64,000 nt of DNA from Branchiostoma floridae (lineage: Eukaryota > Chordata > Leptocardii > Amphioxiformes > Branchiostomatidae): contig NC_049986.1 in NCBI RefSeq assembly GCF_000003815.2, forward strand, positions 17,227,542-17,291,541, in the 5' to 3' direction. Below, in pieces: positions 1,348-26,762 of the stretch. Under the pieces are notes generated by a model. That model was given only the letters and a program-made list of their open reading frames with translations, had not been told where the DNA came from and made no database searches. Both the position numbers and the translations under genes were made by a program. Numbering within the stretch: the first letter of the stretch is position 1; each line of letters begins with the position of its first letter.

Positions 1348-1810
1348 TTACCACGTCCCCCTGGGACCTCCTTTACCACGCCCCCCCTGGCCCCTGGGAC
1401 CTCCTTTACCACGCCCCCCTTGGCCTCTGGGACCTCCTTTACCACGTCCCCCTTGGCCCCTGGGGCCTCCTTTACCGCGTCCCCCCTGGGCCATGGAACG
1501 TCCTTTACCACGTTCCTCCTGGCCTATGGAACCTTCCTGACCACGTTCCCACTGGCCCACGGAACCTGCTTTTTCACCTCCCCCCTGGCCAATGGAACCT
1601 GTTTTTCCACGTCCACCCTGGGCCATGGAACCTCCTTTACCACGTCCCCCCTGGCCCATGGGGCCGCCTTTACCACGTCCCCCCTGGCCCATGGGGCCTC
1701 CTTTACCACGTCCCCCCTGGGCCATAGTATCTCCTTTACCACGTCCCCCTTGGCCCATGGAACCTGATTGACCATGCCCCCCTTGACCCATGGTGCGCTG
1801 TTTTCCACGC
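1348..1810 (-). repeat. 33-bp coding minisatellite in the G1 tail
   Basis: The 3' half of the G1 tail exon is a tandem array of 33-bp units encoding 11 residues of the form GPMGQGGRGKG. The last units (GPRGQGGRGKG) are nearly identical, which points to recent unequal exchange. Older, more diverged units of the same length (GGRGQGGQKGK) lie at about 2010-2150. Confidence 0.85.
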
Positions 1811-4800
1811 CCCCGTCCTCCTTTATCTTTAGGACCCCCTTGACCTCCTTGGCTCATGGAACCTACCTGGCTACGGTTTTGTCCACCCTTTGGACCTGTC
1901 TGGCCTGGGCCTCCTCTGCCCTTTGATCCCCCTGGACGACGTCCTCTGCCCCTGGAACCGACTTGATCACGGTTGGGACCCCTCTGGCCTGGTTCACCTT
2001 TGCCCTTTGGACCCCCTTGGCCACGTCCTCCTTTGCCCTTGGATCCCCCTTGCCCACGCCCTCCTTTCCCTTTCTGTCCACCTTGGCCACGCCCTCCTTT
2101 ACCCTTCTGTCCCCCTTGGCCCCGCCCTCCTCCACCTCCGTTAAATGGACCATCCTCCTCCTCGGCTTCCTCTGATTCATCTCCTTCTTCGGGTTCCTCC
2201 ATATATTGCTCACCCCCCTTCATACCCCCACCGCCATTTTTGAAACGGCCCTTGCCTCGCCCTCGACCACCTGGTCCACCCCTCTTATTGTAGCCTTCGT
2301 CCTTCTCATTCCCGTAACTTCTCAGTTCTCCATTGTCTCCCGTGAGACCTTCAGGACCATGTCCTCCACGCTTCGTGTTTCCTTTCCCTCGACCGTTCCC
2401 TCTCTGTCGCCTTGCAGCCTTGGCCTTCTCCATACCCTTTCTTCTGCCTGCTCCGCCGCGCCATTCGTCTTCTGGAGATTCGTTTGCCTGGTCTTCATCG
2501 TGGTCGTCTACGTCATCTGATGGTTCTGCGTCATCTTCTTCAAGGTCAGAGATGGCTGAATCTAGACCCAGACTGTTTGGAAAAATGAAAAGGTATTGTT
2601 TTGTTTTCACAGAATCAATTTCAATGAATCGGACTTACAATTCAGTTAGTATTATCAGAAAACAAATGTGTCAGTAAACATTTTTTGAATACTTAAACCG
2701 CCATAACCATTGGTGAAGAAAGTAATTGCAAGAAAAACTAGAGTTCAACGAACCCATCTCTTCGCCAAATAATCATGCCTTTATTTAAGACTTTAAGGTC
2801 TTATTGTTCCTCACAAACACACAAACATTACCAAAACCAGACTGTGACCTGACATATGACCTGGTAGCATCCCTGGTCAATCAGAATTTCATGCTTGTCA
2901 ATTTAGACTTTGTCCCCAGTGTAAGGGCGTCCTCCAGCAAACCATCTGTATAACAGCTGTGTCCATAGATATAGGTCAAAATGAGATATATAGAGCACAG
3001 TTTATTTCTGTTAATAAGTTTTGCTGCAGTACCTTAGGAAGCCGCTAGGGGGCCCACTATCATAATTTATCTTCGTTTTCCTGACCCCTACCCACCTACC
3101 AAATATCATCAGGATTTTTTCAAGGCTTCTCGAGTTATGCATTCCACAAACAAAAGGACGCACAGACTCGGCCTGCTACCGTCCTAACGGAAAATGCTAC
3201 GTCAACTATTTTCAAACACAACCTTCCTTTCCGCAGCCGCTACTTAAATACTAAATATCATGAAAATCCATACACAGCTTCTTGAGTTATATGCTGTTGG
3301 CATGGATTTATGAACTTTCCTCATTAATTATGCAAATAAGCTACTAATTTGCATAATTAGTATTACATTGTATAAGTCATCACTCATTCTATCTACATAC
3401 CGAAAATCCTGATGATCTGTTTACACGTTGTCAAGTTATCCTCGTCCAAAGTTTGAATGGAAATCGGTGCCTGCAGTTCCCAAAAAGCCGCTAGGGGGTC
3501 CAAACTCACAGCACTTACTCTCTGTCTCAAGGGCTATCTACCACTCAAAAATCATGACCACAGCATGTCCAGAACACGAAGTGCCAAAATTAAAAGTTTT
3601 GCTGCAGTACCTTAGGCAGCCACTAGGGTGCCCATTATCGAACTTGACCTTCGTTTTCCTAACCCCAATCCACCTAACAAATATAATCAGGATCCATTCA
3701 AGGGTTCTCGAGTTATCTTGCTTACAGACAAACGCACTTACATACAAATCCCGCTACAGCACCATAGGTAAGAGCCAGGTAAACCATTTTCGCACTTGAC
3801 CTTCCTCTCCAAAACCGCTACACACCTACCAAGTTTCGTGAAAATCGCCCAGCTAGATTTTGACTTATGCTGCCAAAAACAAACCGCAAAAAACATACCA
3901 AGCTCGCTGCAGTACCGTAGGAAAACGCCAGGTAAACCGTTTTCAAACTTGGCATTCCTTTCGACAACTGCTACACACCTACCAAAAATCACAAAGTTCC
4001 ATCCACAATTTCTCGAGTTATATGCTGTTGACCTACATACAGACCCAAGTCAAGCAATCTCATACTCTTCTTGGCGAAGAGAATGAAAGAAAGGAAGATC
4101 TCAATGCATGTTACGTTTGCAAATGAATACAAAAGGCACGAACCTGGATAGCACGTCGCTATCCAGCTCAGACAATGGGGTTTCGAGGAGCTCCCTCAGG
4201 AGCTGATCTGTTGAAGAAAAGAAAAGTATGTGGAATGCTCACTCACACGAATACACTGTTCACAAAACAATGATATAAAGAGGTTTTCTTTTTCAAAATC
4301 ATTCTTTTTATTGTCAATGAATAACATGAGTAACACATGGCACACATGAGTAACATTAAAACTGAAACCTAAAATCTGAACACGAAAGACTGATCATAAA
4401 ACGTCGTGAGTAACCCTACCATTGTACAGAAAAATAATGGGATTTAACTCGATAGGACAATATGTAGTCTACCTCACTTCCCAATGTGCTTCTGAATCTT
4501 ATTTTGTCGTTGAGCTATAATAGATTCTAATTTTTGAAAATAGGAAACAAATGAAATGAAACCAGATAAATCAACATGTATTCCAATATTCAAATACATA
4601 ACATTTACCTGAAAGAATCATGACATTTGACAGAACTAATATGTATATAAAGAGTTTGATAAGACATTGAGAAGGTAATATACTTTTACCTGAAACAAAA
4701 TAAAACTTTACGCACTGAAATTAACAGAATTACTTATAGCGTTGAGGACACACCTTGTATTTCCTCCTGTTGACCATCGTCATCTTCCACGTTGTCTTCT

Positions 4801-4928
4801 ATCGTCAAGAGTTTGCTCTTGGATGGGATGTCCTGCTGGTATGGATGAGGAGCAGATTCTCCCAGAGATACAACTGCACAGAGGAGAAGCCCACAAAGCA
4901 CACCCCGTAGGATGTAGGGACGAACCAT
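1348..4928 (-). CDS. G1: secreted protein with basic Gly/Arg/Lys/Gln 11-residue repeats
   Basis: No named family is recognised. Exons read 4928-4754, 4207-4144 and 2572-1348 (175+64+1225 nt, 487 aa). The phases are 0-1, 1-2 and 2-stop, and all junctions are GT/AG. The ATG at 4928 precedes a clear signal peptide (hydrophobic core GVLCGLLLCAVVSLG, likely cleaved near residue 26). A short acidic and Gln-rich segment follows, then a Leu-rich segment in exon 2 (LLRELLETPLSELDSD). The tail exon opens with a strongly acidic block and then turns very basic and Gly-rich. Most of it is built of about 11-residue units such as GGRGQGGQKGK and GPMGQGGRGKG, close to but not a true collagen GXY register. 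It probably acts outside the cell. A possible decayed coiled-coil exon lies at 4526-4473. The tail exon and signal exon are well supported; the small exon rests on phase and splice sites alone. Confidence 0.72.
2850..4060. repeat. Array of diverged interspersed-repeat copies in a G1 intron
   Basis: Several imperfect copies share a core beginning GCTGCAGTACCTTAGG and containing CCGCTAGGGGG. They occur near 3022, 3472, 3600, 3755 and 3908, each followed by text such as CACCTACCAA and CTCGAGTTAT. The unit is roughly 130-170 bp apart in places. The short open frames across it are by-products of the repeat. It separates the small G1 exon from its tail exon. Confidence 0.7.
4473..4526 (-). pseudogene. 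Possible decayed coiled-coil exon of G1
   Basis: The segment has an AG acceptor and a GT donor in the phase 1-1 frame seen in exon 2 of G2-G6. It reads ESIIAQRQNKIQKHIGK and then an in-frame TGA just before the donor. Using it would truncate G1 at about 75 residues. A second donor four bases inside (GTGAGG) avoids the stop but ends in phase 2 and would have to join the tail exon directly. It may be a relic, a poison exon or coincidence. Confidence 0.3.
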
Positions 4929-4994
4929 CACGTATGAGTCAAGTTTCTCTGTAAGTAGTTCAGATCAAGATGAAACCAAATTTGTGATCGCACT

Positions 4995-5002
4995 TTTAAA
5001 TA
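4995..5002 (-). promoter_or_regulatory. TATA-like box of G1
   Basis: TATTTAAA reads on the minus strand about 70 bp upstream of the G1 ATG, comparable with the TATA boxes of the neighbouring cluster genes. Confidence 0.5.
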
Positions 5003-5009
5003 CTATCCA

Positions 5010-7183
5010 AGGGTATATCATTTGCTTACGTATACCAACAGCTAGAATACGATCTGCAGTTACTGCTTGTGTGGCCCCAACAGGACATTGAGTTAGCCTT
5101 TAAGGTCATGAGAAGTAACTTTCATCTTTGGCGATATGCAAAATAACATTGAACTACGTCATTGGTGTAACTGGATAAAGATATTTGGCATCCATTTTGG
5201 CCTTCGTCTAAGTTCACGTAAATGGAATTAAAAGCTTGTCGTTTGAACTATGTGGGGAGTCCAAGGCCACATGAATTGATGCACTAATTCATATGTTATT
5301 GTATTGTTCTTGTAGAAAAATTGGAAATTTCATCTGACTTTCCCGTGGGATTCCTTTCATGTTTTGTTCACAGTTCTTGCACTGGGAAGAGTGACAGACT
5401 TGTATGACATTTTTTTTATACAGAGCAGTGATGAGAGTAATGACACAAGTAAAAGGAGCGCCATAGCCCGCTCGTGACCTTGGTCGTGAAGGAAAAGATA
5501 CTTAAAAAAACGTGGAAAATCAAAAAGCCGCAACACGTCTTCTGTACAATACAGTCAACAGTTTTCTAACTATAGGATTAGTTATCTAAACACCAATCAT
5601 TGCTATCTTCAGACAGATAAAGCAATCTGACTTTCAAGGTGGCCTTTCCGCAAATGAGGTATGAGGTTTTAGTGACGACGGAATCTTCCATGACTGATGC
5701 CTCAACGTTGCGCCTGTTTTGGACGGGGAGGCTCTTTTTATTATTTCAACAGGTGAAATAACCATCAAACCACCTCAAGACGTAACAATTACGTGCAGGA
5801 TGGGAACAAGCTGCGTACATGTAATACCCCATTCCTCGTCCATACCATCGGCGAGGTGATAGCGCTCTCGCTGCGATGGCACTCCCACCGCGCTCTCAAG
5901 GCGCTCCCATGGCGACCTTGGCAATCCCGATTGGCTCTCGCCGCGATGGGCATATTTGCCAACGCCGTGATAGCGCCGCCCTGGTGGAATGGGGGCCTAA
6001 GACCGGTACCGGACTGGTGAATTTGCTCTACCCATGCAGTGTTGTGTTGCATCATGAACACATCACTATGTTTTACTCATGTTAGGAAACATTGATATAA
6101 AAAATATATATATATAAAATCTATATGTGATTTCAGCTATCACAGTTTCTTCCTCATGGAAGAGTAAAAGTAATCGTTTAAAATTATAAAGACATACAAA
6201 ATTATCAATCGCTGTCTATTTAATCTGCAGCTGACTATTACAATAGCGGTCGTTTTCATCATGATGCATCTTGTGTAGGTAGAAAAGTATGCATCTAATT
6301 AATAAGCGTAAAGATTCCGGCCTTGATTAAATAATATTCATTCGCTTAAGCTTCTTTCAACCGGTGCATGGCCTTTTAGGTGCGCAGTTTTTACCAATGG
6401 TGAAACCTTTTCTGGTGAGCTTCATATTCTTTGAGACCTCAGAGTTGGTTACAGATCATCCACACACGACTGTTCTATAAACCTTATAATCTTACTGATA
6501 ATATTTTGATGTTTTGTATCTGTATGTAGCTTAGTAGTTGTTACCATACTTTGTATACTGTACAATTGTCGAGCGATAAAGTTCATTCATTCATTCATTC
6601 GTTCATTCATATATACATGTAGCGTTTTAACAATCTTATAAAACACAAGCATGCACTTGTACTCGAGATAAAAGATGACAAAGACAATGTGTCATTTTCA
6701 CAGTTTACTTGTGACCCTGGTGTGAATTACACATTTTTTAAAAGATGAAGCATTCACTGCATGGTTCTAAAGAACGTTACGACACTTAGCCTGTAAATTC
6801 AATGTCCATTTTCCGGTCCAAATCAGTCCTCCGATTGCACACAAAATACGAACATAAACACACACACACAGTTCTTTTGATGACTATTAAACGTATTTCC
6901 CTATACGACTAAGGTAGGAAGTTATTGGAAAATGCTGCGTTGAAACGAAGGGAACCTATGGTGTTCAATAGCCGTGTAACTAATGATATCTCGTTTCGGT
7001 ACAATTTGAGTGAAATATCCTTAATGCGGTGCTAGTTGTCATTGCCTGTCAAGATCTTCGGGAACAAGCTGACCAGAACAACATTTGAAGATCTTTCTGC
7101 ACAAAACTAATAATCAATGCGTGAAAATAATATTCCGGGTCCAGAAACCTCAGCTACTTCTCCGATTCTCACTGCCATCCTCG
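5010..7183. other. Intergenic, G1 to G2
   Basis: No gene is supported. It holds a locally GC-rich block (about 5795-6040) with partly self-complementary text, a short TTCATTCA-type repeat near 6582-6608, and otherwise AT-rich unique-looking sequence. Confidence 0.5.
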
Positions 7184-10022
7184 CTAAACTCCTCTTGTTC
7201 CTCCTGCTTCATCCATCCCCCTCCCCTCGGTTTGTTTCCCCCGGAATGGTTGGAATCCCCCTTTTCCCCGATTCTTTCCCTCAGACCTGTTCCTCAACCA
7301 TGCAAATTTGATTCGTTTACGTGAAAGATTGCCTCTCTCGTTTCCTATCGCGCCATCGTCACCGAGCCTCCGTTCATCGCTTTTGTCCGGGATGAAGTCA
7401 ACGTCCTTGCGGGAACCGAGTTTCCTGTTTCCAGAGATCACGGCCCTAGCCCTCCATCCACTACCGACTCTTGTCTGCCTTTCTTGTCCTTTCAAAGCGC
7501 CCTGACGATTGTGCAGTCTGTGGATGTCAACAATACACATTTGATCTGTGCTTACGTGTCAGCGGTAAACATTTTGTTCCTTACTGTACCGAAACGTTGC
7601 CTTTGGTAATAGTTATTCTCCAAGCAGGGTTTGGGTCGCGGAGATAGGAGTGGTTGGGTTTTCTACAGGGGGAGCGAGCCGGCCGAAAAATCCGTAACAC
7701 TGCTATCTCCGCGATCCAACCGCTGGGGAATGAGTATTAGTAATCTTCATGTGAACACAGCAAAAATACAGCGACTTTCGTATTCATAATAATGTCTTGT
7801 TGCAAGTTGATATTAGATTTTATGTGTAACAAAAGATAACATCAGTGGATGATAGCCAAAGACGGAAAACGAGCCAAGCTTTATCGTGAATACATAAAGA
7901 GTACTGCTGCACATGACTTGTGTGTTTACATATAGAATGTAAAGCATATAAACTCTTATTGTGCCAGATTTGTTCGTTACTTTCCCAAGCACTTTATATG
8001 TAGCTGAGAGCTGAAAGGTATACCCACTGCTGATGCAAAACCTTATCTGTCACTGTGTTGAGTATACAGTGGTTTGTAAGCATAACATTAAGCAGTTTAG
8101 GAGCAACAGTGTAAGAATAACATACCTTTCCTTGGGTATCTTCAATGTGGAAAATATCTTTCTGCCTCTTTCCTTCCCTTCCGGACTATCTGTAAACATA
8201 TGAGGAGCATGCAATCTTTAAATCTCTTTCTTAATCCTTAAAATATTTATATATACAATTTGACAACATAGCATGTCCAGGTGGTAATAAAAGTTTACCT
8301 TTCTTCTCTTTTTTCCCCATCAACTTTTCCACGTTGCTGCGTTTCTTTCCGTTCCCTTCCAGCGTCCTCACCTTGCTGACCACGCCAGCCGTCATGTTTT
8401 CTGTTGGAGATAAAAGAAGTGGCTACAACAGTTGCAATATTTGTGACATAACAAAAATCCTGTGCGTCCAACACAATCAAAGACAAATTAACTGCATGCT
8501 CTGTTCTAAATGACGCCAATCCACTTTGTTTACCCGAACGATTGCCTTTCCCGTTTCTGAGCCCCCGTTCACCGCTTTTGTCCGGGATGAGGGTAGTCTT
8601 GCGGGAACCGAATTTTCTGTTTCTAGAGAAGTTGGCCCTGCTCATCATCCACCCTCTCCCTCCTTTTGGCTGGCCTTCTTTTCCATACAAGGTTCCTTTC
8701 CGATGATGTGCTAGTAGTCTGTGGAGATCAACAATGCATATCTGATTTGTGTCAGCACTAAACATTTATGGGTACGGATATGTCAAACCTGGGCCGTTAT
8801 TTTTCCGTATCCTTAAGAGATACGGCCATATTACGGGCGGAGACGAGATACCATTCGTGTCCACCCGTATATGGTTGTATCCTTTGAGGATACGGAAAAA
8901 ACGGCCCCCTGTACCGATACGTTGTATTTTGTAATAGTTATTCTCCAAGCAGTGTTTGGTTCGCAGGAATAGTAGTGGTCGGGAATTTTACCATGGCAGC
9001 GTACCGACCACTACTGTCTCCACGACCAAACCACTGATTGGAGACTAGGTAATAGTTATCTTCATGGAAACACAACAAAAGTACAGCTTTGTTCGTTACT
9101 TTTCCAGCTGAGAGCTGAAAAGTGGAACCACTGCTGAGGCAACACCTGACCAGTCACAATGTTGAGTATATATACAGCGGTTTGTAAGAATAACAAACCT
9201 TTCCTTGGGTCTCTTCAATCTGGAAAATGTCGTTTTTCCTCTTTCTTTCTTTTCCGGGCTATCTGTAAACATAAGAGAAAGCATGTAATTTTTTTTAATC
9301 CCTTTCTTATACTTCAAAATGTTTATATATACAATTTGACAACATGTCTAAGTGGTACTAAAAGTTTTACCTTTCTTCTCTTTCTTCTCTTTCTTCCCCA
9401 TCAACTTGTCCACGTTGCTGCGTTTCTTTTCTTTCCTTTCCAGCTTCGTCACTTTGCTGACTACATCATCCATGCGTTTGCTCAGCCGCGTCATGTTTTC
9501 TGTTGGAGATATAAGAAGTAGCTTTACAACAGGCGGCACAATATCTGTGACATGATTTTTTTAAAGTCTTGTGCGCCTAAATAATCAAAGACAAATCAAA
9601 CTGTACACATAAAGATGTGCCAATAAATTAACATCAGCCTTTCTTAAACTATATTAACTTTGGATGCTGTCTCTGCAGTGTAGAAGAAGGATGTTGATGA
9701 TTTGTCTCGTGATCTCAGCAACAAATATCTCTCAAACTGTCTGAGACCTACCAGTGATTTCATCGAATCGCTCATTGATGAGACTTGTCTGCAGTGTCCG
9801 CAACTTGTCGTCATCTGGCGTTGTCTTTGAGAGCCGTTCTTCCGTCGGGGGCATTGCTGCCTCGTCATCTAGCGTTGTCTTCGAGAGGCGTCCTTCCGTC
9901 GGGGGCATTGCTGCCTCGTCATCTAGCGTTGTCTTCAAGAGGCGTCCTTCCGTCGGGAGTATTGCTGGGTAGCCCGTCTCTACCAACACCAGCAGGACGA
10001 GTAGTATTGGGATGGACCTCAT
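7184..10022 (-). CDS. G2: secreted Lys/Arg-rich coiled-coil protein with internally duplicated exon block
   Basis: No named family is recognised. Exons read 10022-9752, 9499-9371, 9262-9199, 8718-8534, 8400-8299, 8189-8126 and 7517-7184 (1149 nt, 382 aa). The phases are 0-1, 1-1, 1-2, 2-1, 1-1, 1-2 and 2-stop. The ATG at 10022 starts a signal peptide (SIPILLVLLVLVETG). Residues of about 22-75 contain three 18-residue repeats built on PTEGRLSKTTLDDEAA, then DDKLRTLQTSLINE, shared with G3 and G4. Exon 2 is a charged coiled coil (NMTRLSKRMDDVVSKV) ending in a Lys-rich run. Exons 5-7 are a second copy of exons 2-4: both copies share KKRSNV, GSRK and IPDKS motifs. The protein is strongly basic. 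Whether one transcript uses all seven exons or two alternative ends exist cannot be told from DNA. Confidence 0.7.
7617..7733. mobile_element. Inverted-repeat element (MITE-like), copy 1
   Basis: The ends pair imperfectly over about 30 bp: the left end contains GTCGCGGAGATAG and the right end CTATCTCCGCGATC. It has no coding capacity. A homologous element sits at the matching place in the other half of the G2 duplication. Confidence 0.65.
8769..8925. mobile_element. Hairpin element inserted in one G2 duplicate
   Basis: The element is self-complementary. TTTTTCCGTATCC near 8812 pairs with GGATACGGAAAAA near 8888, and GGTACGG near 8771 pairs with the CTGTACCG side near 8910. It interrupts the intron of the upstream copy only, so it arrived after the duplication. 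Similar open frames appear on both strands because of the palindrome. Confidence 0.7.
8938..9046. mobile_element. Inverted-repeat element (MITE-like), copy 2
   Basis: This is the counterpart of the element at 7617-7733, with ends TTCTCCAAGCAGTGTTTGG and CCAAACCACTGATTGGAGA. It occupies the same position in the other duplicate. Confidence 0.65.
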
Positions 10023-10112
10023 GGTCACAGTTTTCTGTTCCTCCTTCTCACCGAACAGACTTCTATCGACCAGCTAACCGGTCGTATCTCCCTCCGTGTG
10101 AGCTGTCCAAAG

Positions 10113-10120
10113 TTTATATA
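10113..10120 (-). promoter_or_regulatory. TATA box of G2
   Basis: TATATAAA reads on the minus strand about 90 bp upstream of the G2 ATG. Confidence 0.7.
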
Positions 10121-11875: not shown

Positions 11876-11957
11876 TGAAGAAAACGAACGTGATTAGAAT
11901 TTACTGCAGTGATTTTTTTTCTTTTCCTACAGCATAGCCTTCATGTTACCAGACACG

Positions 11958-12002: not shown

Positions 12003-13372
12003 TCATCCACCAAACAAACTAGGGAAAAAACTCGAGAAAAAGTTTAACCCTTTTGTGACAGGGGAACCATCTGACTGCTGTTCATTGTTACCACCCCGCA
12101 TGTCCCCGGCCCCCTGCCTTGGTGGGTACCCAGGACCAGGACGGGAGTTCCTTCCAAAAATGGGGACCTGTGCCAGGGAGTCCCTTCCGCCGTGTGGTGC
12201 ACGTGGTGGTGGCGGCGGTGGTGGATTCTGCCGAGACGATGGTCTGCCACCCATGCTTGTGTTCTGGCCTTTCAAGCCATCTGTAGACGGAAGGAATCTC
12301 ACTGTTAGACGTCGTCATATATTGATTTTCGTGTTTCATTTGTCAATGATATTTATATTTAAAACCTTTTTTTTTCATTTCTGTCTTTCCTCATTGTCCT
12401 AGCAAAACCGACAATACACTCAGACTATTGGCTTGCGCTTTGAACTTGCCTCCAATAGAACATTTGTTATATATTTGATAGCTCACTTTAAAGCTTATTG
12501 ACTGGATTCCTTATTCCTTATTGACTGAAAAATCCTACCTGGAAATTGTTTAAGGATTTTGCAGGTTATCAAGAAGATACTATTTAACAGTCTTACCTTT
12601 TCCTTTCACCTGTTTCTTCAGATCTTCCATCTCCTTCTCCAGGTTTCTCATCTTGTTCTTCATGTTCTCCATTTGGTTTCCTAGCCTGGTCGTGCTGGCT
12701 GTTAAAGGCGACAAAGATATTACTACTATAGTAAACACACAAACAAGCTCCTTATCCAGTAGACCTACTCAGCCCTCAGTCCCTTCACAGCACCATGTAC
12801 ATGGCGAGATTCTAGAAAACTGCAGTTACGGTACATACCAGTCAGAACAAACCCGGTAAATGTGCATCTGTGTTAAATACTTGCACCGCACCCAGACGAA
12901 ATTGAACTGCTCCTTCATACAAGTAAGCTATTAAACCATCTTTTGGAAAGTGATCGACTAGGTATTTGCTGAATAATCCTATACAAATACTGCTTAGAAT
13001 CACCTACAATGGAAAAGATTACAACGATTATTTTTTATGGATTGCCCTTCATTGATTCATGTGTTGAGACGTTGACAATACTGTTGTTTCTTGATCAACC
13101 AATCATATTTGTGACATCCAAGTGACACGCAGTGATGAAGTTAAAACAAAATACTATTTGGCGCGAGTATCATCAGCTGGCCTGTTGTCTACTTCGACAG
13201 GTGGTTATTACATTAATGTTTTGCTGATCTCACCTGAGATTTCTCCGATTCGCTCATCAAGAATCTTCTCGACTTTCTGGAACTGATCATCATCTTTAGT
13301 CATCAGGTCAAAGGGAGCGGCCAGGCAGCCGGTCACAACCAGCAGAAGAAGAAGTGGGACCACCATGGCCAT
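12003..13372 (-). CDS. G3: small secreted coiled-coil protein with Pro/Arg/Gly tail
   Basis: No named family is recognised. Exons read 13372-13234, 12698-12597 and 12280-12003 (139+102+278 nt, 172 aa) in phases 0-1, 1-1 and 1-stop. A strong signal peptide (VVPLLLLLVVTGCLA) is followed by KDDDQFQKVEKILDERIGE, closely matching G4 and, less closely, G2. Exon 2 is a coiled coil with clean heptads (LGNQMENMKNKMRNLEKEM). The tail carries a run of seven prolines, GRNSRPGPGYPP and a hydrophobic Phe-rich end (LNFFSSFFPSLFGG). It is the shortest member and lacks the separate phase 1-2 exon of the others, so its last exon starts in phase 1. It is likely extracellular and probably oligomerises through exon 2. 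Confidence 0.8.
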
Positions 13373-15584: not shown

Positions 15585-17838
15585 TTACATGCTCCTAAGG
15601 AAATCCATCAAACTGAACTGTCGCATATCCCGACCACCTTGTTCCCTTCCATCGTCACCACCCCTCTGACGGGACCACCCACCCCGACCACCTCCCCTGG
15701 GACCCCTTTCCTGTCGCGGCGGGCCCCTGCGGTATCCCCACATCGACTGAAAGTCTCGGGGTGGAGGACGGCGTCGTTCCTCGCTGGAGTCACCAGATCC
15801 ATCTTCTTTCTTCTCTTTGCTTTTCTTTTCTTTTGAGCTGTCAGCATCCTCCTCTCCCGAATGTGGTTTGTCTTTGCGCCAGCCGCTCTTTCTTCCCCTC
15901 CCGCCCCGTTCCCGACCGCCCTCTCCTCCTCGGGGTGGCGGATGGCCAAAACCGCCTCGTTCCCGACCGCCGTCTCCTCCTCGGGGTGGCGGATAGCCAA
16001 AACCGCCTCGTTCCCGACCGCCCTGCCCTCCTCGGGGTGGTGGATGGCCATCGTCATCACCCCTGTAAGGTAACGAAGAATACGCTATATGTAACTGCAC
16101 CATACTGTACATCAACCGATGTGCTGACAGATTATTCAGAGAGGTCACCAAGGATTCCCCAAACGTGTTAGACCTTATCGATAAACAGATATTGCACAAC
16201 TCATCTTCCACGAACATGTCGTTTGTTGTAAGATTGAACGACGCTGTGAGGCGTACAGCTTATATCTGATCGTTGATTATCCGGGAAGACGTTAAGAGAG
16301 AATGAGACCTTAAGTTTATTTGCATGCCCGAGGGCTAATTGCAAGTACATGGTCTGAACATAGGAGATATACAAGTGACAATGAACAGTTATAAACGACA
16401 TTCTACTCGAATACTTGTGTTGGCTATTTCTAAACAGCTTGGGTTTGACTTCTTTATTTGGAAGCCAAGGGAGACGAAAAGCTCCCCTTTTTCCACTCTG
16501 TGGGTTCTGCGATTTCAAGAGAAAAGTGGCTTTCTGTTCGTCTGTGAATGTGGGTTTCTGTTCGTCTGTGAATGTGGGGAAGTTGGGATATGTCTTCGTG
16601 GATTCTCTAAACAGAGTGATAAGCCATTGTTTCCATCTACACCTGTCCCCGGGGGATGCCAGCTCTTTTCAGGTCCTCTCTTTTTAGAGATTTACAATCG
16701 TTAAATTTGACAAGACTAGCATATGAGACAAAGTTATGACAATGCCTGTCTAGTTTCTAGGTTTTACTTACCTTTCTTTAGATTTCTTCTTTGGGTGTGG
16801 GGGTCTACCTTTTGGGCGGCCCTTTTCTTCCGAACTATCTAGTATACACAAAGGAGAAAAATATCATTACGAGTATTTGTTTCATTTTACCATGGATTAT
16901 TTTACAGATGCTGTAATGGAAGCAAAATGCCTCTTTAGCTTTGAATGTGTCCAATATTTTCTTTGACTTGTTTTTGTTTGCATACACAAATACGTATACG
17001 TTTGAACAGAAACAGCCATCTACGAGTAAAGATACAATTCTACTCTAACTCTTACCTTCTTCCTCCACGTGTTTCTCAAGGTCTTTTATCTTGTCGGTCA
17101 TGTTTGCCACCTGTTTGTCCAGCCTGTTGACGCTTTCTATTAAACAGAGACATACACAGGTTATGTGTTAATGCCTACATTTCCATTCTCAACTACAAAA
17201 AACACCACGCTGATCGATCAAAGAAAAGGCAAATATGAGTCCATCAAACTAACTAATTTTTTTTAGTTTGGTCTTACGTAACTTACACTAAGTGAGCATA
17301 AACTACAATTATGTAACAACTATACAATCAGACAAACCCTGACAATCAAATATTTGTATCCAATCGTTCGTCTACCATATGACAAGAATGATCACAGCCG
17401 CATATTCAATGTTACCACTAACATACTGCTTAACAGTTCTCCAGTATGAGACTTAAGGTGCACCCTCACTGCACTTGTGTCATGCTTGCGTCACTGCGGG
17501 GTTCGTAAAATACTCAACGAATTTCAGAGATAAAGAATTTTTCTTAACATTTTGTCGTCTTCTAAGTCATACTTTAACGTATTACGCAATATCTAAATTT
17601 TAAAAATATCGGAGAGAATAACAAAACAGTGACGCAGCCTGAACCAAGCTTGACGCAAGTGCAGTGAGAGTGCACCTTTACCTGAGATCTCTCCGATTTT
17701 CTCATCCATGATCGTCTCCAACGTCTGGAGTTTGTCGTCGCCTGCCGTCTGCTCCGGACCGTCCCTGCCTTGAGGAGCGGCGAGGCAGTCCGTGCCGGTA
17801 AGGGCCAGCATGCAGAGCAGGATCGCCACGGACGGCAT
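15585..17838 (-). CDS. G4: secreted coiled-coil protein with RGG-like tail
   Basis: No named family is recognised. Exons read 17838-17682, 17136-17056, 16838-16772 and 16062-15585 (157+81+67+478 nt, 260 aa) in phases 0-1, 1-1, 1-2 and 2-stop. The signal peptide is MPSVAILLCMLALTGTDCLA, followed by DDKLQTLETIMDEKIGEIS, shared with G2 and G3. Exon 2 is a coiled coil (VNRLDKQVANMTDKIKDLE) with an N-glycosylation sequon. Exon 3 is short and basic. The tail has three 17-residue repeats of the form PPPRGGDGGRERGGFGY, a mixed-charge Lys/Glu/Ser block, a second Arg/Gly region and a C-terminal FSLMDFLRSM. RGG tails usually belong to nuclear RNA-binding proteins, but the signal peptide argues for secretion. 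A transposable element touches the exon 1 splice donor. Confidence 0.8.
17456..17677. mobile_element. MITE with 3-bp TTA target duplication in G4 intron 1
   Basis: The terminal inverted repeats start AGGTGCACCCTCACTGCACT on the left and, read inward from the right, AGGTGCACTCTCACTGCACT. TTA directly flanks both ends (17453-17455 and 17678-17680). A TTA/TWA target duplication with no coding capacity fits a PIF/Harbinger-type MITE. Relatives occur at 35410-35644 and, partly, at 56414-56571. Confidence 0.85.
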
Positions 17839-17938: not shown

Positions 17939-17949
17939 GTTTATATATA
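17939..17949 (-). promoter_or_regulatory. TATA box of G4
   Basis: TATATATAAAC reads on the minus strand about 100 bp upstream of the G4 ATG. Confidence 0.7.
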
Positions 17950-20417
17950 CCGTGATCGGATCCTGATCCAACTCTCTGGGTGGTGGCAGGGCATGATCAA
18001 GACATTAATCCAGTGACTTGCGGAACCATGGCGATTCATTGAGTTAATCTTAAAGGAAGATTTGTGTAAGTCTTAAGTATATTGCTCCAACGGAAATACC
18101 TTTGGGTGTTTATGTAGGCTTTTACCTCATTGGCTGTATTCATATCTCATTTGATCCCCATGGGATTCCAGGATATCGTATTATTTGGTAAAAATGATTA
18201 CGACTACGTTTACGAAATTACCACACACTGAGTAATTTTGTAGAGAGGTTGCCCTTAAATAAAAACAATTGAACTTATTCATTACTGTCAAAGCTGGAGC
18301 TTCGTGGGGTCGTGGAATCTGAACTAAATTTTGTTCTTGGTGTTTTCATCTTGGCTCTTTATATAAGGTATCGAGTTGCGCATTTTGTATGACCCAAAAT
18401 ATGTACGCTGCGACATTGCCTACCTTTTCTTTAAAATGTTTGGGGTTCTCCCGCTATCAGCTGGCCAATATTAGAGAAAGCTACTCCACTGCTTCACTAT
18501 ATCGTGCGATCTCGTGGCCTACTACAGAGTGCATGCTACAAATAATGTGCCCTTGGGAAAGTCACTTATCACGGCTTTCCTAACCCCACCCAAGCCTAAA
18601 AATGGGTACCTAACTTCAGTTGGGGAGGTAAAAGGCGGTGGAAGAAGAGTGTTGAGCTCTAACTTCCCTAGATTGACAAAAAACGAAAACCGCTGTCCTA
18701 TCCTCTCACGGCCTTAAAACGGATGTGGAGACTACTTTTGCCATCAGGAACAGCTGATATATAGTAATGGTAACACTTTACAGAACAGCCATCTTTGCCA
18801 GCAAATGCCAAGTATCTTGAGTGGTTTGGGCCTCTAGCAGTTTAACAACTGCGATCAGGTGTATTTGTCGCAATGGCTGTTTTCATTTGGTGTCGTTCGA
18901 TTGTGACGCTGCTTTTCTGTTGATGCGTACAAGACTGTGTTTTAAATTTGTCAGTGATAAGTATGTTAGCTTCTAAGTAACTTTTTGGTATAAGTTGATG
19001 TGATGTGTTCTGTAAATATTAATGCGATGTAAACACCAAGTCATACACCACAGAAGCCACCACAGCCGACATAAACCATAATTAGGTCACAGAGTATGTT
19101 ACCTACGGTCACTTGTTTGCCCTTGTTTATCATACATTTCTCTCTGTCGTCACGTGCACCGCTGTCGGCTGGTACAGGGTCTCGCGCGGTCGTCATCACT
19201 CATAATCAAATAAACGACTTCATCAAGCTAAGGACATCCTTAATCAAGGAAACAATTACTCCCAAAATTACAAAGTGATTCGCTCACGTCACTGCCTTGG
19301 TTACGCAGAATAGGATTTCAAAACAAACCTTTTGTTGTTCTCATAGATGACGTATGCTTACGTTTTTTAATCTCGCTGGACGTATTACAAGGAAATCAAG
19401 TTACCTTTCCGTGGTCTGTATGGAACAAGCCTGCTCTCTTTGCCTTTGTTATCGACGCTTCGTTCAAGTAATTGATGATGAAAAGCTGTGTATTCTCTCT
19501 TGTTAACTCTAGTTCTCGAGTTTTGACAAAGAGAAATGTGACGATGCCAGTTAAAAGTCCAGGATGTAGTTTACAATTCCAAGCATGATGTTAAGTATGA
19601 CCATGCATGCTTGAGCACTGGCTAGCAGGGAAGCGGTTCTAAATCATGCTATACAGAACAAAGATTGTGAAGGGGTTATTTCTTTTTCAATGATCATGCT
19701 TTCTTCCCTTGTGCTTACAGAAAGTTGACATACATATATATCACAGATACAAATATCTGTGATCATACAATAGTTCTGATTAAACAAACTTAGAGGACAT
19801 AGAACAAAACAGCTAACTAGCCGGATTTCCTGATCACTAGCGTCACAGAAAGGACGAGCCCGTAGTTTCATGCTTCTCAATATTTATTTCACGCTGTGCC
19901 AAACCAAGCTACAAGTTCATGTGCTTCTAAGTTTTGCCATCATGAATTATCAGTGTTGCATTGGTGACATGTTTCAGGAAAGGAACTGCAGTGCCTGTAC
20001 TCAAACAGTGTACAATCGTCAAAAGAACGTGCATAAATTCTGCAAACACCGTGATCAATGCTCACATCAAATTGAAGCAGAACACAGTACAGCATTCTCA
20101 AATTTTGAACAGTCAGATCGCAAACGTACTTCAGATCGCAAACTTTGCGGTACAACACCGATGGAAAGTGGTGGACAGTATTAGGTGATAGTAAGGAAAA
20201 TATTGTTTCCAATATAACAATTCTGGCGAGTATATATTTTTCTGAAAGAAAATGTTCTGTTCAGGATCGGATACCCTAGTAGTTTGCGTTTTCAAACATT
20301 AATTTCAGGTCACCTACATTGTACATACCGCTTCTGCTTAATCCTTTGCGTTTTGTGGAGAGATTTTTTTTCTGCGCTGTTTGTTGTTGTGGTCCTTCCG
20401 TTACCTACTTCCATTGT
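17950..20417. other. Intergenic, G4 to G5
   Basis: No gene is supported. It contains a SINE-like repeat (about 18485-18720) and otherwise AT-rich sequence. Open frames on both strands at 19870-20212 show no domain and no convincing splice context. Confidence 0.55.
18485..18720 (+). mobile_element. SINE-like repeat
   Basis: It shares the phrases GATCTCGTG, TGCCCTTGGGAAAG, TTTCCT and AATGGGTACCTAACTTCAG with the repeat at 50445-50630, in the same order. It is diverged and probably 5'-damaged. Confidence 0.5.
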
Positions 20418-22178
20418 TTACTTTCCGCGTCCACGCCCAAAGGAGCTCCCGAACATGTCTTCAAGACGTCCGCGTACTCCTCCCCTTTCCTCTTCGTGGT
20501 TCTCCATCTCCTCTTCTATTCCCGCAATAACGCCTTGGAACCGTTCGGGGCGACCATGTCCTCCTCCCCTTTCCTCTTCGGCGTTCTCCATCTCCCCATG
20601 TATTTCCCGAAAAATTTCTCGGAACCGATCGGGACGACCTTGCACGTGTCCTCCTCCCCTTTCTTCTTCATCGTTCCCCAACTCCTCTTCTGTTTCCTCA
20701 AACCTAGGGTCTCGGGACCAATCGGGACGACCGTGTCCTCCTCCCCTTTCTTCGTCTTCTTCTTCTTCCTCCTCCTCCTCATCTTCTTCCTCCTCATCTT
20801 CTTGTTCCTCCTCATCTTCTTCCTCCTCATGTTCTTCGTCCTCATCTTCTTGTTCCTCCTCATCTTCTTCCTCCTCATGTTCTTCGTCCTCATCTTCTTC
20901 TTCCTCCTCATCTTCTTCCTCCTCATCTTCCTCTTCTTCCTCCTCATCTTCTTCTTCCTCCTCATCTTCTTCTTCCTCCTCATCTTCTTCCTCCTCATCT
21001 TCTTCCTCCTCATCTTCTTCTTCCTCCTCATCTTCTTCCTCCTCATCTTCTTCTTCTTCTCCCTCCTCACCTCCTTCTCTTTCTGCCCCTTCTTCTTCCT
21101 CCACTTCTTCCCCAAACCCCACTTCTCCCTCAAACACTTCATCTTCATCCGATTCCGCCCCTTCCACTTCATCATTGCTGCAAAAACAGTAGGTGTAGGC
21201 ATTTGGCACTATGTTCTCTCATAGAATATTTTAAGTGTGCATCAAGCTTTCATTCAAAATGTTTCTGGGTCATGATTACATCTTTTTTTTTTAAATAAAA
21301 AACAGGAACTGTATTTACCCGTGTCGCCTGTTCTCGCGTTCTTCACGCCACGCCTCCTGAAGAGTTTCCAGATTGTTGGCCATATTGAAGATCAACTCTC
21401 GCATTTCACGCACCTCGTCTTCGCTTGTAGCATCTTTCGACAGAAAGAAAATATTCAAAACTTTCTATCAAAATAGGAGTCACATACGCACATGGAAAGT
21501 ATGTTAATGCTTAATTGTTCCCGAGAAAATAGACTAAATAACAAAATTGGCTGTTTGAGATTACGCCTGCTTGTTAGGCTGGAAGATTTAAGATACAGAA
21601 AGTAGAAGCACAACCTTTGGCAATCTGCTCTTAGCACAAAGCAACAAAGTCAGTCCTTGCATCCTTGCATGATTTTTAAAAAAATACACCCATGGCAAAG
21701 TGGCTCAAAGAAATGGAAACTCGTAGAAAATGACCTACCTTGATTTGCTACCCTTTTCAGCGTCTTCCCCATTTGTCCCGTGATTCGTTTCTGGTTGTCC
21801 ACGTTGCGTTCCAAGCTGGCAAGACGATCTGTGAAAAATAGGTCCCGTGATGAACGCTCTGCTAGTACTTCGCACATAAAAGCTACATTCTATAAGGTAT
21901 ATTGCGCAATACTTTTGCGAGAAACCGTTGCAGTTTAGGCATCAACTTAGTCAAACAATACAACGACATGAAATTGTACCACAAAAACAAGGACAGGCTT
22001 TACCCTTGAGCTCTTGAATCTCTTCGTGGTCTTGAGTTGCTTCAGGATTCTCCAGCTCCTTAGTCTTCAGCTCCTTAATCTTGGAACGGAAGCGGTCGGT
22101 GGAAAAGCCATTCGCCTCCATCGTGGCCATGAGGAACGTTACCACAAGGGTAACAATTAGCGCCTTGTTGACAATCAT
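20418..22178 (-). CDS. G5: secreted coiled-coil protein with poly-glutamate tail
   Basis: No named family is recognised. Exons read 22178-22004, 21828-21739, 21433-21319 and 21177-20418 (175+90+115+760 nt, 379 aa) in phases 0-1, 1-1, 1-2 and 2-stop. I start at the ATG 22178 because it opens a signal peptide (NKALIVTLVVTFLMATMEANG); the frame extends upstream only by non-ATG codons. Exon 2 (RLASLERNVDNQKRITGQM) and exon 3 (EDEVREMRELIFNMANNLE) are coiled coils whose closest relatives are the same exons of G6. The tail has about 110 residues that are almost all Glu with spaced Asp. Three copies of an EEERGGGHGRP-type motif follow, and the end is basic (FGRGRGK). The result is an extremely acidic, calcium-binding-capable polymer with a basic cap. 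Confidence 0.8.
20751..21065. repeat. Poly-Glu-coding purine/pyrimidine tract
   Basis: About 310 bp is almost purely pyrimidine on the plus strand, built of CTTCTTCCTCCTCAT-like units of 15-18 bp. It encodes the G5 Glu/Asp run on the minus strand. All other frames also stay open: Ser-rich and Leu/Phe-rich frames run across it on the plus strand. Confidence 0.9.
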
Positions 22179-22328
22179 TGTCGATGGATGCAGCACTTTG
22201 GTGGAAACTACTGAAACCTCCCACTATTCTTGCTGCTGCACTTTTCCAATCGCCTATTCCTTTACTCTGTGTTGCTGCTCTTTGACAGCTCGGGTTGACT
22301 GAATGCGTCGTTCCGGGGTATCTGCGCG

Positions 22329-22336
22329 TATTTATA
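22329..22336 (-). promoter_or_regulatory. TATA box of G5
   Basis: TATAAATA reads on the minus strand about 150 bp upstream of the G5 ATG. Confidence 0.6.
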
Positions 22337-22339
22337 GTA

Positions 22340-24305
22340 CCTGCGTTCTTTTGAATTTGAACTCTGAAAATTAGTTTACATACCAGAACAAAGCAACAAT
22401 GATAATATTACTTCTTGAGAGGCCTTGGCATTCTTTCATGTAAGATCATGGACGAAATTCGAAGTGTTCTTTTTTGTCAAACCTCCATCCGCTTTGTCAA
22501 AATCAACATCGGGTGGCCGGCAGTAGTTTATTTGACCAAAAGTCGTGTCAAAAAAATTCACATCGACCGCCATGCATGGCAACTATTGCTTCCCGGCTCA
22601 GATCGCCCTCCGAGTTCTCTGACATGGGACAGGCAGCTGTTTTTAACATGTGGTTGGTAAAGTGTAGAGGGGCCTGAGGGGGTGTAAGGGACTTATCTCC
22701 TACGCTCCCTATCTGTTGCTGAATGTCCTTACAAAATATACTTTTCTACGTAAATACCATCGTGGAAACCCTTACCACGACTAAGCACCTTTGACTTTGT
22801 AACTATCTATGAATAAAAACCAGAAGGCATGTTGTTATGACAGATGTGAAGCGGTGCACGTGCTTCATGAACGGCTAGAGATGTTTTGAGGCATTGACGT
22901 AGTCAACACTTTACCATCAGAGTCAACAATTAACCATTTCTATGGTCCTGATTACTTCGTCTCAACTTTCTTTGTAATCTTGTTACTTCTTTTTGTGTTG
23001 GTCGTTTTCAACTGAGCAAACACTCTGCAAACACCTTTGTAACAACCTTATTTCGTTAGGAAAGGCACGTGCAAAATGTTCCCCTGCAGCGGGGCGAAGA
23101 GCATCCAGGTGGCCTTAAGTAACCGCGTGGTGGTCTTGTAGAAACCCTAGTAATCTCCTTGGTTGCACAATTGGTAAAGATGTCTACTACATCCGTTTTT
23201 CTCACTCGACTCAGATGGAAATGAGCGCCTAGATTCGCGGTATGGATGGTACGTGTTTGAGGAAGTGGAAACACATGTTAAACACGTTAAGAAGCTAGCC
23301 CTCAACATTTAAAGAAAATTGTATGTCTCCTTTACAGTCCATTGAGACCTACCTTTTATTCATTGTATAAAACTAGAGTGTTACCAGCCTACCAGCGCAA
23401 ACTGCGAAACAAACACAAAAATCTTTATCATGTCTGTCATGTGTGCTTATCTATTTAAAGGAAACCTAATTCTAAGGGCAACAACGAATTTCGTTCGTTT
23501 GTTCCATAACATAAAAGTACGTATTTTTCCTGGGTAGAACAATGGCACACTCTGCCCTTGTATGCCACAGCTGCAGGGTACAAAAACAACGTAAGGGAAA
23601 AGCTTATTAGCCGCGTGGGGCATGTTCGGCTAATGAAAAAGATAGCACACTGGTCTCAAGCTTGTTAGTCATTTATTTCAAGCAGTGCCAACAAAATCAC
23701 AAATTTACTATTTCATATGTTACCATCAGTGAGTGATGGCGCGTTTTAGAAAAGAAAAGAAAGCAAAGTTGTGTACACATTTCAACAAACAGGCACCTAC
23801 GCATATCAAAACACCGTACTTAAAGCTTACAAACCAAATCCAAACCAAACACAGATTTCTCACCAATGACAATATAGTTTCTGACAAGTCTAGCCATGTT
23901 ATTGGGGAATGCTTATAATTCTAGGTCACCAGTAACATATTGTTTCATAGTAGGATTTTTTTCAGAAAAATGTCACAGGTTTTATTACCTTAATGTTTCC
24001 CAATCAATTTCACATTACTTAAACATTTTACAAGTTACAAGAGAATGAAGTGAAATCCCATTTTTATCACAATCTCAAGATCTTTACCCTAATTTTCATA
24101 ACTGTACAAACAGTAATTAGTTTCTTCCCAATTGTCTCGCGTTGATGTCTCCCTAGCAAAAAAAATCTCCACAAATGGTAGGCATCCTAAGCTGAAAATC
24201 TGCATTTTTAAACTGTTTTCTCTAATCTACGTTGCTTTGTTGGTACCATGCTGTTTTCGTTCAACTCACCCCTTTATTCATCTTTATTCACTGTCTACTG
24301 AGCCA
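22340..24305. other. Intergenic, G5 to G6
   Basis: No gene or clear repeat family is supported. The sequence is AT-rich with short uninformative open frames. Confidence 0.5.
24273..24288 (-). promoter_or_regulatory. Paired polyadenylation signals of G6
   Basis: Two AATAAA hexamers on the minus strand (24288-24283 and 24278-24273) lie 18-33 bp past the G6 stop. This implies a very short 3' UTR. Confidence 0.6.
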
Positions 24306-26762
24306 TCAGCCGGGGAAGTTAAAACCACCAGGCATAGACCGCCCCATTTGGATGGATGGCTCCAGTGGTGCGATTGCCTCCTCTTCCTCTTCCTGTGGCT
24401 CCTCTTCCTCCTCCGTGTATACGGGCTGCCACTGGGGTGGAGCTAGACCCATTCCACGAAAGCGATCGAGCATCTCACTGAAACCACTCGGAATGATCCC
24501 ACCCACCTCTTCGCTATCATCACCACCGTCACTGGCGCCCGCTGGGCCAGGGTTGGGGCCAAACACTGGGCCACGGAGGGGAGGAAGGATCTCGGGCCCA
24601 TCAGGGTTGGGAACATGCTGTGGGCCAGGGATGGGAAGGATCTGTGGCTCAGGGTTGGGAGGATGCTCTGAGTCATAGATGGGAGGAAAAACCTGGGGCA
24701 TGATGTTGGGAAGATCGCCCCCATGTCCGAAGTTAGGGGGGAATATGGGTAGACGCCCATTCTGGAATGAAACACCTGTGTTGTCGCCGTCATCACCCTC
24801 GTTGAAATCGCCCGGTGGACTCGGTGGACCGGGGTTGGGTCCAGGAATTCCGACGTTAGGGAACAGGGGGAGACGCCCATCACCTGTGTTACCGCCGTCC
24901 CCATCCTCGGTGAGATCACCCTCTTGACTTTGGTCGCTACCTTCACTGGTGCCTCCGGCCCCTTGCTCCTGGTCGTCTTCTTCACCTCCGGGAAACAATC
25001 CCGGCATGGGGCGCGGGATGACAGGTCCCTCCGGCTGCTCTTCATTGTCATTCGATTGGCCGCCGGCGTTGGCATTGCTGAACATAGAATAATTTCACAT
25101 CACCCAAACAGTGTGTACAAAGTGATCTGTAGTGTTGTTTGTTTGTTGTATTTCCTGATTACATTTATATCCAATATGGAATACATAGAATCTTAGATTG
25201 AATAAAATAGAATGAAGAAAACAATCTCACCTGCTTTCTTCACCACCTTGCCGTGAGCGCCACTCATCCAAGTTGTCTACCCTGTGAATCATTGTCTCCA
25301 ACCTCTCACGCATTTGGCGCACATCGTCTGGATCGAGTCGGTCTTTGGAGAAGATGTAAAAGACAAAGCGATACATAAAACGACAAAACTCAAAAAGACA
25401 GAAATCGGTTACGTATATCAGAAAGAAGTTAGTAAGTAGAGTAAGACTGCAAGAAATGTAGGTTGATAGAGGATGCCTACTTGTTGACTTTCTCCATCAT
25501 AAAGATATACTTTCGTGCTACAAATTACAGAACAAATATTGCACAATTTGCAGTGCTCCTTCGTACCAACGGGAATATGCTCAAATCTTATCTGTTGGTC
25601 CATGAATGATTTGTGATGATGGCAAGCACGAATAATCCGGCGTTTGATAATACACCGCACAAAAGTTCACCCAAAGATTACGACATCACGCTAGCTAATA
25701 GAAATGGGTAGAGAAAATTTCCTACCACGAGAGATCTCCGTTTCCTTCATCTTGAGTCCGATCTGCCCCATGGTCCGGGACATGCTGCCTACGGTGCGCT
25801 CCAAGCTTCCAACTCGTGCTGTGTAAATGAATACATAACGATAAACCGTTTTTATGTTTTCCACATCGGCATAGTTATGCAGTAAAAAGTTAGGCGTCTC
25901 TGAAATCAGTCTTGACAGTAGCACTATAACACACTGTACCGTTCTGAAGTAGGTATACATAGCATTCAAGACATGTATATATCTGTATCTGTATCTATAT
26001 ACGCGGCGCTGCATCTATCTGTAAGCGTTCTCTAAAACTATACAGGGAAGATGCACCTATTGTGTTTGGTGATGACAAATTCCACTCTACGATGGTTCTG
26101 GGAAAGTACACATTTTTGAACACATCAATCCTAGATTGGTCACTTTGGAAAGCATGACTGTTGTAGTAGACTGTTGTTGACCCATGTAGTATGAGGATTG
26201 TCATAGTAAAGGTGTTATACTTAAACAGAAATGGTAATCACTCAATAGGTCATTGTTATACGAAATGGACATGTCTAAAAAGAAAAGGGAATACTGTGAT
26301 AATGACTTCCAGTGATCCATGGGTTTTGCAATGCTACGGACTGTAATGCTACTGGTGTCTGGGAACTGCATCTGTATAGCCCGACCCGTCATACCTAACC
26401 ATCGCACATCTGACCGCAGCGTTGTATAAAGCTATCTAGTGAGACCATCCCCAAAATCAAACAAACGCATGCCACCTATACACCATCTGATATCAATTTT
26501 GTGGGTGCTAACTCGGGCTGATACAAACAGAAAGAGCCTTACCCTTCAATTCTTCCATCTCTCGGTAATTTTGACCATTGATGGGCAGATCCTTTGTAAT
26601 TGCAGTCGCCGATTTCTGCTGAGTGGGCCGATCCTTCGTAACCGTAGATTTCTGCGGAGTGTTTTTAGACTTGGGGTTGCGAATTCGAAAGCCCTCGGTG
26701 CCCGACGTCGCCAATAGGACCATCACCACAACTGTAAAAACCCACGTCTTGCCGAACATCAT
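24306..26762 (-). CDS. G6: secreted coiled-coil protein with acidic Pro/Gly/Asp tail
   Basis: No named family is recognised. Exons read 26762-26543, 25818-25726, 25342-25231 and 25077-24306 (220+93+112+772 nt, 398 aa) in phases 0-1, 1-1, 1-2 and 2-stop. The signal peptide (FTVVVMVLLATSGTEG) is followed by a basic Thr/Lys/Pro segment. Exon 2 (RVGSLERTVGSMSRTMGQI) and exon 3 (DDVRQMRERLETMIHRVDN) are coiled coils paralogous to those of G5. The tail begins SNANAGGQSNDNEEQPEG and has two diverged units with GRLP(L/I)FP. It is rich in PNPGP-type turns and acidic clusters, carries a Glu run near the end, and closes with MPGGFNFPG. It is predicted extracellular, acidic and largely disordered. G5 and G6 look like the youngest duplicate pair by exons 2 and 3. 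Confidence 0.82.

Follow-up and report, generated by a model that had tools for sequence, protein, structure and literature searches.

A one-strand row of putative secreted-protein genes, most with predicted coiled-coil fronts, and with repetitive, charged tails in Branchiostoma floridae

Gene models and exon plan of the row

The window analysed here, i.e. the whole stretch of 64,000 nucleotides of Branchiostoma floridae DNA (contig C8, 17227542-17291541, within a searched genome of 513,431,437 bases and 431 contigs), carries a row of six genes, G1 to G6, which lie head to tail on the minus strand from 1348 to 26762 and in each of which a signal-like exon is spliced into a repetitive last exon. 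The original prediction had placed both ends exactly, and the six gene models, built by reading the minus strand of the window, are real, with corrections, their layout being well supported. The row had also been described as six genes ending at G1; a further gene, G0, was found in the 40 kb that adjoin the window on its left side, with its start at window coordinate -3051 (C8:17224490). Including G0, the row keeps to one strand over a span of ~32 kb, and GT-AG ends are present at 21/21 of the introns listed (19 in G1-G6 and the 2 known in G0).

A common plan of intron phases, with variations in G1-G3, had been claimed for the six genes, and it is exact in G4, G5 and G6, which have four coding exons each (0-1, 1-1, 1-2, 2-stop), while G2 follows it with a doubled block; G3 (0-1, 1-1, 1-stop) and G1 (0-1, 1-2, 2-stop) have three exons and fall, as does G0, one exon short of this plan. 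In G6, exon 1 (26543..26762, 0-1) encodes a signal-like leader, a linker and the start of a coil (REMEELK), and is followed by exon 2 (25726..25818, 1-1) with the coiled coil ARVGSLERTVG... (heptad shuffle p 0.0005), by a second coil-like exon 3 (25231..25342, 1-2) homologous to exon 3 of G5, and by exon 4 (24306..25077, 2-stop), an acidic, Pro/Gly-rich tail. G5 likewise combines a leader, linker and coil start in exon 1 (22004..22178, 0-1) with a coiled coil DRLASLERNV... in exon 2 (21739..21828, 1-1; p 0.0000 in 2000 heptad shuffles) and a second coil-like exon 3 (21319..21433, 1-2; p 0.02), which keeps the heptad register of exon 2; its exon 4 (20418..21177, 2-stop) is a poly-Glu/Asp tail (149 D+E and 19 K+R in 253 residues) ending in about three 28-residue units. 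G4 has a signal-like leader with DDKLQTLETIMDEKIGEIS in exon 1 (17682..17838, 0-1), a coiled coil in exon 2 (17056..17136, 1-1), a basic Pro/Lys linker in exon 3 (16772..16838, 1-2) and a mildly basic tail of GGRERGGFGHPPPRGG repeats with S-x-E motifs in exon 4 (15585..16062, 2-stop). The leader of G3 is joined to DDQFQKVEKILDERIGEIS in exon 1 (13234..13372, 0-1), upstream of a coiled-coil exon 2 (12597..12698, 1-1) and a Pro/Gly/Arg tail in exon 3 (12003..12280, 1-stop). The front motifs noted previously are present, namely DDKLQTLETIMDEKIGEIS in G4, with close forms in G2 and G3, and SLER(N/T)V in G5 and G6. Short C-terminal motifs with hydrophobic or aromatic residues were also observed on the minus strand in G3 (FFSSFFPSLFGG, 12003-12040), G4 (FSLMDFLRSM, 15585-15620) and G5 (LEDMFGSSFGRGRGK, 20418-20465).

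The seven exons of G2 correspond to the plan of G4-G6 with the block of exons 2-3-4 doubled inside the gene. Exon 1 (9752..10022, 0-1) holds a signal-like leader, three 54-bp repeats and DDKLRTLQTSLINERFDEIT, exon 2 (9371..9499, 1-1) a coiled coil with a Lys-rich stretch, exon 3 (9199..9262, 1-2) a basic linker and exon 4 (8534..8718, 2-1) the basic tail unit a, which passes through a phase-1 donor into the second coil exon with the frame kept. Exon 5 (8299..8400, 1-1) is a copy of exon 2 minus 27 bases, exon 6 (8126..8189, 1-2) a copy of exon 3, and exon 7 (7184..7517, 2-stop) a copy of exon 4 with an extended, basic tail. Identical among the aligned bases are 93/102 for exons 2 and 5, 54/64 for exons 3 and 6 and 138/175 for exons 4 and 7, as compared to 90/104 and 209/276 for the introns between the duplicated exons; the introns flanking the copies have likewise stayed similar, with 71.5-91% identity in the BLAST pieces.

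At the left end of the row, G1 consists of exon 1 (4754..4928, 0-1), with a signal-like leader and an acidic linker, a short, Leu-rich exon 2 (4144..4207, 1-2) and exon 3 (1348..2572, 2-stop), in which an acidic start gives way to 33-bp repeats encoding GQGGRGKGGPM-like units. At the end of this array (1333-1386, minus strand) the last repeat unit measures 25 bp instead of 33 bp and the stop codon lies inside the array. G0, also on the minus strand, was modelled with a signal exon (-3051 to -3222, 0-1), an exon 2 (-3358 to -3448, 1-2) and a strongly acidic last exon that begins at -3563 and is cut by an N stretch at -4976; over its known part it has the same phase plan as G1. Immediately before this gap (window -4975..-4860) the acidic tail of G0 becomes Lys/Arg-rich (KGKRKGKGKLKGKL) and contains an REKR site, and 2069 further bases of N adjoin the left edge of the window.

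Two additional features had been proposed as marks of the row. A codon split as G at the end of exon 1 carries no weight as evidence, because G is the last exon base at all 21 donors and equals the ordinary donor consensus. On the other hand, a TATA-like box near the ATG was recovered 98-159 bp upstream in G2-G6, as well as 95 bp upstream in G0, but none was found before G1 or the adjacent C-type lectin gene by the pattern used. TATAWAD occurs 30-170 bp upstream of 992/9741 random points, which gives P ~7e-6 for its presence in 6/7 genes, an optimistic value because the range was picked after the sites had been seen and related genes are not independent.

Coiled-coil fronts and coding potential of the tails

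A coiled-coil exon had been attributed to all six genes, and a shuffle test on exon 2 detected the heptad pattern in G2 to G6 (p<=0.0005), but not in G1 (p 0.59). The best heptad register is equal across the junction of exons 1 and 2 in G3, G4, G5 and G6, suggesting that in these genes a coil is split by an intron with its register kept; this is likely rather than proven, because the exon 1 pieces are not significant by themselves (p 0.08 to 0.52) and because the best register in exon 1 of G3 and G4 is nearly tied with the runner-up.

Leaders were scored by a simple hydrophobic-core measure against 3568 background ATG frames, of which 68 are not exceeded by G1, 1 by G2, 26 by G3, 50 by G4, 88 by G5 and 42 by G6; the leader of G0 is weak or unremarkable (494/3568 not exceeded). 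Cysteine is absent beyond residue 20 in all seven proteins (in G0 over the known part), and the charge-hydropathy line classes the last exons of all seven genes as disordered. Without the first 20 residues, the approximate isoelectric point is 9.85 for G1, 10.58 for G2, 9.64 for G3 and 9.54 for G4, and acidic for G5 (4.05) and G6 (4.34), while G0 is Glu/Asp-rich, with 249 D+E versus 42 K+R in 558 known residues. Judged from these properties, G0-G6 look like secreted, cysteine-free and largely disordered proteins.

The repetitive last exons are shown to be coding by the sequence itself. Rows reported by Tandem Repeats Finder (TRF) within exons have a period divisible by 3 in 15/15 cases, versus 8/21 outside, and collapsing overlapping rows leaves 9/9 in exons versus 5/16 outside (Fisher P 0.001); the row that runs across the G1 stop has a period of 25. 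In one repeat block of G1, 13/16 differences between adjacent copies are at third codon positions, whereas the other block (26/64) shows no excess and the remaining arrays no clear one (G4 3/5, G2 1/3, G5 29/82). Furthermore, among the 40 lowest-complexity long open reading frames (ORFs) listed over 304 kb, 27 fall within -4973 to 25099, i.e. the ~30 kb of the row, many of them being mirror frames of one and the same exon, and the nine lowest-complexity ORFs all lie inside the gene row. Of the remaining 13, the interval 51966-52636 holds five and 96845-97625 two, and the other six lie elsewhere. A 45-bp tandem repeat of ~10 copies, open on both strands, was observed at 51966-52639.

Relationships among the genes and proposed explanations

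Front exons were compared in 196 pairs with 200 shuffles each (best 30 pairs listed) and, by a stricter shuffle preserving the hydrophobic pattern, in 45 pairs with 2000 shuffles each (best 20 listed). The former test gave strong links for G3-G4 (exons 1 and 2), the G2 duplicates, G5-G6 (exons 1, 2 and 3) and G2-G4 exon 1, in addition to 0/200 at lower z for exon 2 of G4 with that of G2 (3.6) and for G4 exon 2 with exon 3 of the lectin gene (4.6). Under the stricter test 0/2000 was reached by G5-G6 (exons 2 and 3) and by G3-G4 and by no other pair, G4 with lectin exon 3 giving 7/2000 and G2 exon 2 falling to 155/2000 with G4 and 301/2000 with G3. Profiles of exon 2 of the G2-G4 and G5-G6 groups did not match each other, and in the shuffle tests the fronts of G1 and G0 were linked to no group by sequence, the best G0 value being 6/1000, with G1, among 38 pairs. 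The initial reading of all six genes as a single family was consequently dropped: the shuffle tests and profile searches tie G2-G3-G4 and G5-G6 separately, with links limited to G3-G4, G2 with G3/G4, and G5-G6.

The accompanying view that fronts are kept while tails vary freely holds in part. Three front exons align between G5 and G6 (0/200 each), the tails of which do not (37/200), and G3 and G4 combine strong front links with marginal tail similarity (2/200). Among the 28 tail pairs compared with 200 shuffles each, 0/200 was obtained twice, for the two tail units of G2 and for G0-G1; the latter similarity (z 4.6) may stem from shared acidic and Gly-Lys tracts, and the fronts of these two genes gave no clear alignment.

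Searches of the whole genome with the fronts of G0, G1, G4, G5 and G6 found nothing off the row below E 0.5. Each of these fronts retrieved itself and that of G4 two G3 exons as well (E 0.013 and 1.66), a hybrid front query found G2 and G4, and two matches of the G6 front on other contigs (E 0.8 and 2.2) were taken as noise. This search scores only the best candidates, exon by exon, and therefore distant paralogues could be missed; even G5 and G6 failed to retrieve each other. In Pfam, the six queries (of which G5 covered the first 163/379 and G1 354/487 amino acids) matched 2, 34, 9, 28, 3 and 0 families at E<=1, and among the matches listed, the best 25 per query, no family reached its cutoff; within this scope Lectin_C gave no match at E<=1 for any of G1-G6. 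Two candidates for G3, the PI3K p85 inter-SH2 region (E 1.4e-5) and Tektin (E 1.5e-5), were rejected, since they lie below cutoff and look like coil cross-hits. Among solved structures, the G4 front matched 29 sequences at E<=1 (best E 0.13) and the G5 front 5 (best E 0.08).

The explanation preferred here, to which a probability of about 0.4 is assigned, is that the locus holds seven or more genes in tandem for disordered polyelectrolytes, which would be bundled by their coils and, being oppositely charged, would condense to form a mucus, cement or matrix. In G2-G6 the amphipathic heptads of exon 2 probably start in exon 1, and the front heptads would associate in parallel in the secretory pathway, within G2-G4 and within G5-G6, thereby bundling the tails. 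A single secretory tissue would make the basic (G1-G4) and acidic (G0, G5, G6) tails under TATA-type promoters, and the opposite charges might then draw these tails together, possibly with the help of Ca or Mg ions, as a hydrated mucus, cement or matrix. In evolution the assembly part would stay and the tails would be altered by slippage and exon duplication. The original prediction of a modular secreted-polymer locus outside any named family agrees in part with the Pfam result and with the partly kept fronts, but the polymer or material function is putative, phase-1 signal and coil exons occur in the neighbouring lectin gene as well, and the evidence does not reach as far as a single family or a material. 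A more far-reaching version, in which one locus would hold the polyanions and polycations of a coacervate together with coiled-coil adapters, as a cephalochordate charge-paired biomaterial kit with freely replaced tails and an independent parallel of the vertebrate SCPP cluster, is unlikely.

Several observations weigh against the row of charge-condensing proteins. Exon 2 has no heptad pattern in G1 and a weak one in G0 (p 0.033), the register is broken between exons 1 and 2 in G2, and between exons 2 and 3 it is off by one in G6. Despite their basic isoelectric points, the net charge of G1, G3 and G4 is small (net charge per residue 0.03-0.04). Tyrosine is scarce, with 0-4 residues in G1-G6 and 18 in G0, and therefore cross-linking of the 3,4-dihydroxyphenylalanine (DOPA) type is not suggested. 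The duplicated exons of G2 are conserved barely more than their introns, at most slightly better, because the identity counts of the two are close. Lastly, common ancestry of G2-G4 with G5-G6 was not detected by sequence in the shuffle tests and profiles, and the case for a common function is therefore one of adjacency, strand and layout.

That absence of links also supports an alternative in which small secreted families (G0/G1, G2-G4 and G5-G6) lie side by side and perform separate jobs, the phase plan being a general phase-1 habit of secreted modules. The groups are unlinked under either shuffle test, their exon 2 profiles do not cross, the G0 fronts are tied to none, and the neighbouring C-type lectin has an identical 0-1, 1-1 front. 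Nevertheless, separate families would not readily account for a single strand over ~32 kb, for a TATA-like box in 6/7 genes, for the identical 1-2, 2-stop ending of G4, G5 and G6 or for the concentration of 27/40 listed low-complexity ORFs in this row, and in short coils sequence similarity fades fast; this alternative is viewed as doubtful, albeit a serious one.

It is improbable that the genes encode Ca- or polysaccharide-binding matrix proteins, comparable to SCPPs or acidic shell proteins, that work without the mechanism of oligomers plus coacervate. The poly-Glu/Asp tails of G5 and G0 would fit such a role, as would the S-x-E motifs of G4 (8 versus 1.8 in shuffled sequence, 15585-17838), which exceed expectation by more than in any other gene of the row. 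However, S-x-E motifs are under the shuffled level in G1, G3 and G5 and close to it in G6 (3 versus 2.2), the numbers for G0 and G2 being 9 versus 5.9 and 4 versus 1.9, the intron phases are not SCPP-like, and lancelets are not known to mineralise.

Derivation from C-type lectins, with the signal and coil exons kept and the lectin domain swapped for repeats, appears quite improbable. The C-type lectin gene that adjoins G6 on the same strand (28871-32340, minus; Lectin_C 23.5 bits versus a cutoff of 22.6) does open with three exons, for the signal (0-1), for a coil (1-1) and for a coil/Pro-Gln stretch (1-1), ahead of its lectin domain, and the third of these is the one that resembles G4 exon 2 in both shuffle tests. 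This is nonetheless a single pair out of 196 and 45 tried, all other lectin pairs giving >=140/2000, and the lectin gene showed no TATA-like box by the pattern used.

A poorer prospect still is that the genes encode prepropeptides of cationic antimicrobial peptides, in which a leader and an acidic propiece precede a variable basic tail that is cleaved off. Antimicrobial peptides usually combine a conserved leader with a hypervariable tail, exon 1 of G1-G4 is net acidic and the last exon net basic, and RxKR/RxRR sites occur in G0, G1 and G2; yet G0, G5 and G6 are acidic, G3-G6 lack such sites, a propiece needs no heptads, and the tails are long and hydrophilic. Finally, the notion that there are no genes here, i.e. 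repetitive DNA with chance open frames, is hardly credible, for although the repeats keep several frames open on both strands and a third-position excess is clear in 1/5 of the arrays tried, it is at odds with GT-AG junctions that are consistent and agree in phase, with the leaders, with repeat periods that are multiples of three and with a duplicated exon block that keeps its frames.

Comparison with known secreted gene clusters

If expressed as modelled, the row represents a secreted gene cluster of an invertebrate chordate that was not found described in the literature listed, as judged by titles and abstract starts. It would constitute a compact natural test of how a kept front permits replacement of the material part, as G5 and G6 have three front exons in common and not their tails, and G2 has an exon block caught in duplication; the row is worth expression data.

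One object of comparison is the lectin gene of the same locus, which is like the row in its signal exon (0-1), coil exon (1-1), strand and adjacency, and unlike it in ending in a lectin domain instead of a repetitive tail, the sequence link being weak. Vertebrate SCPP clusters are the best-known parallel; SCPPs are disordered, fast-evolving proteins, and an excess of S-x-E phosphorylation motifs is one of their features. As described in the portions of the sources consulted, SCPP clusters are made up of tandemly duplicated secreted genes with acidic and Pro/Gln-rich branches (PMC7807025, PMC12193501), and SCPP introns are of phase 0 (PMC7807025), or are so in 'most SCPP genes' (PMC5118209). 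The row is similarly clustered and secreted in its predicted products, and also has an acidic branch; by contrast, all 21 introns of G0-G6 are of phase 1 or 2, and G2-G6 have coil fronts. SCPP membership was accordingly ruled out, because no phase-0 intron is present among these 21.

Molluscan mantle proteins with repetitive low-complexity domains, such as shematrins and KRMPs, are described, in the part of the source consulted, as lineage-restricted secreted repeat proteins of Gly/Ala-rich, Lys-rich or acidic composition that evolve by slippage and motif shuffling (PMC4897951). On this description, molluscan mantle and shell-matrix proteins are an evolutionary parallel to the row, although no mineral is known in lancelets and a coil front is no part of the description consulted. 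The closest functional parallel among the sources consulted, again by description, is the cement of the sandcastle worm, in which, according to the portion of the source consulted, the basic, Gly-rich Pc-1/Pc-2 and the phosphoserine polyacid Pc-3 are packed by complex coacervation (PMC12621633). Both systems would bring together oppositely charged secreted proteins, and the row differs from the cement so described in that its acidity is due to Glu/Asp and not to phosphoserine, in its few tyrosines and in its coil fronts. In conclusion, secreted gene clusters of the 'conserved front, free tail' type are known, and the row is a variant of this type.

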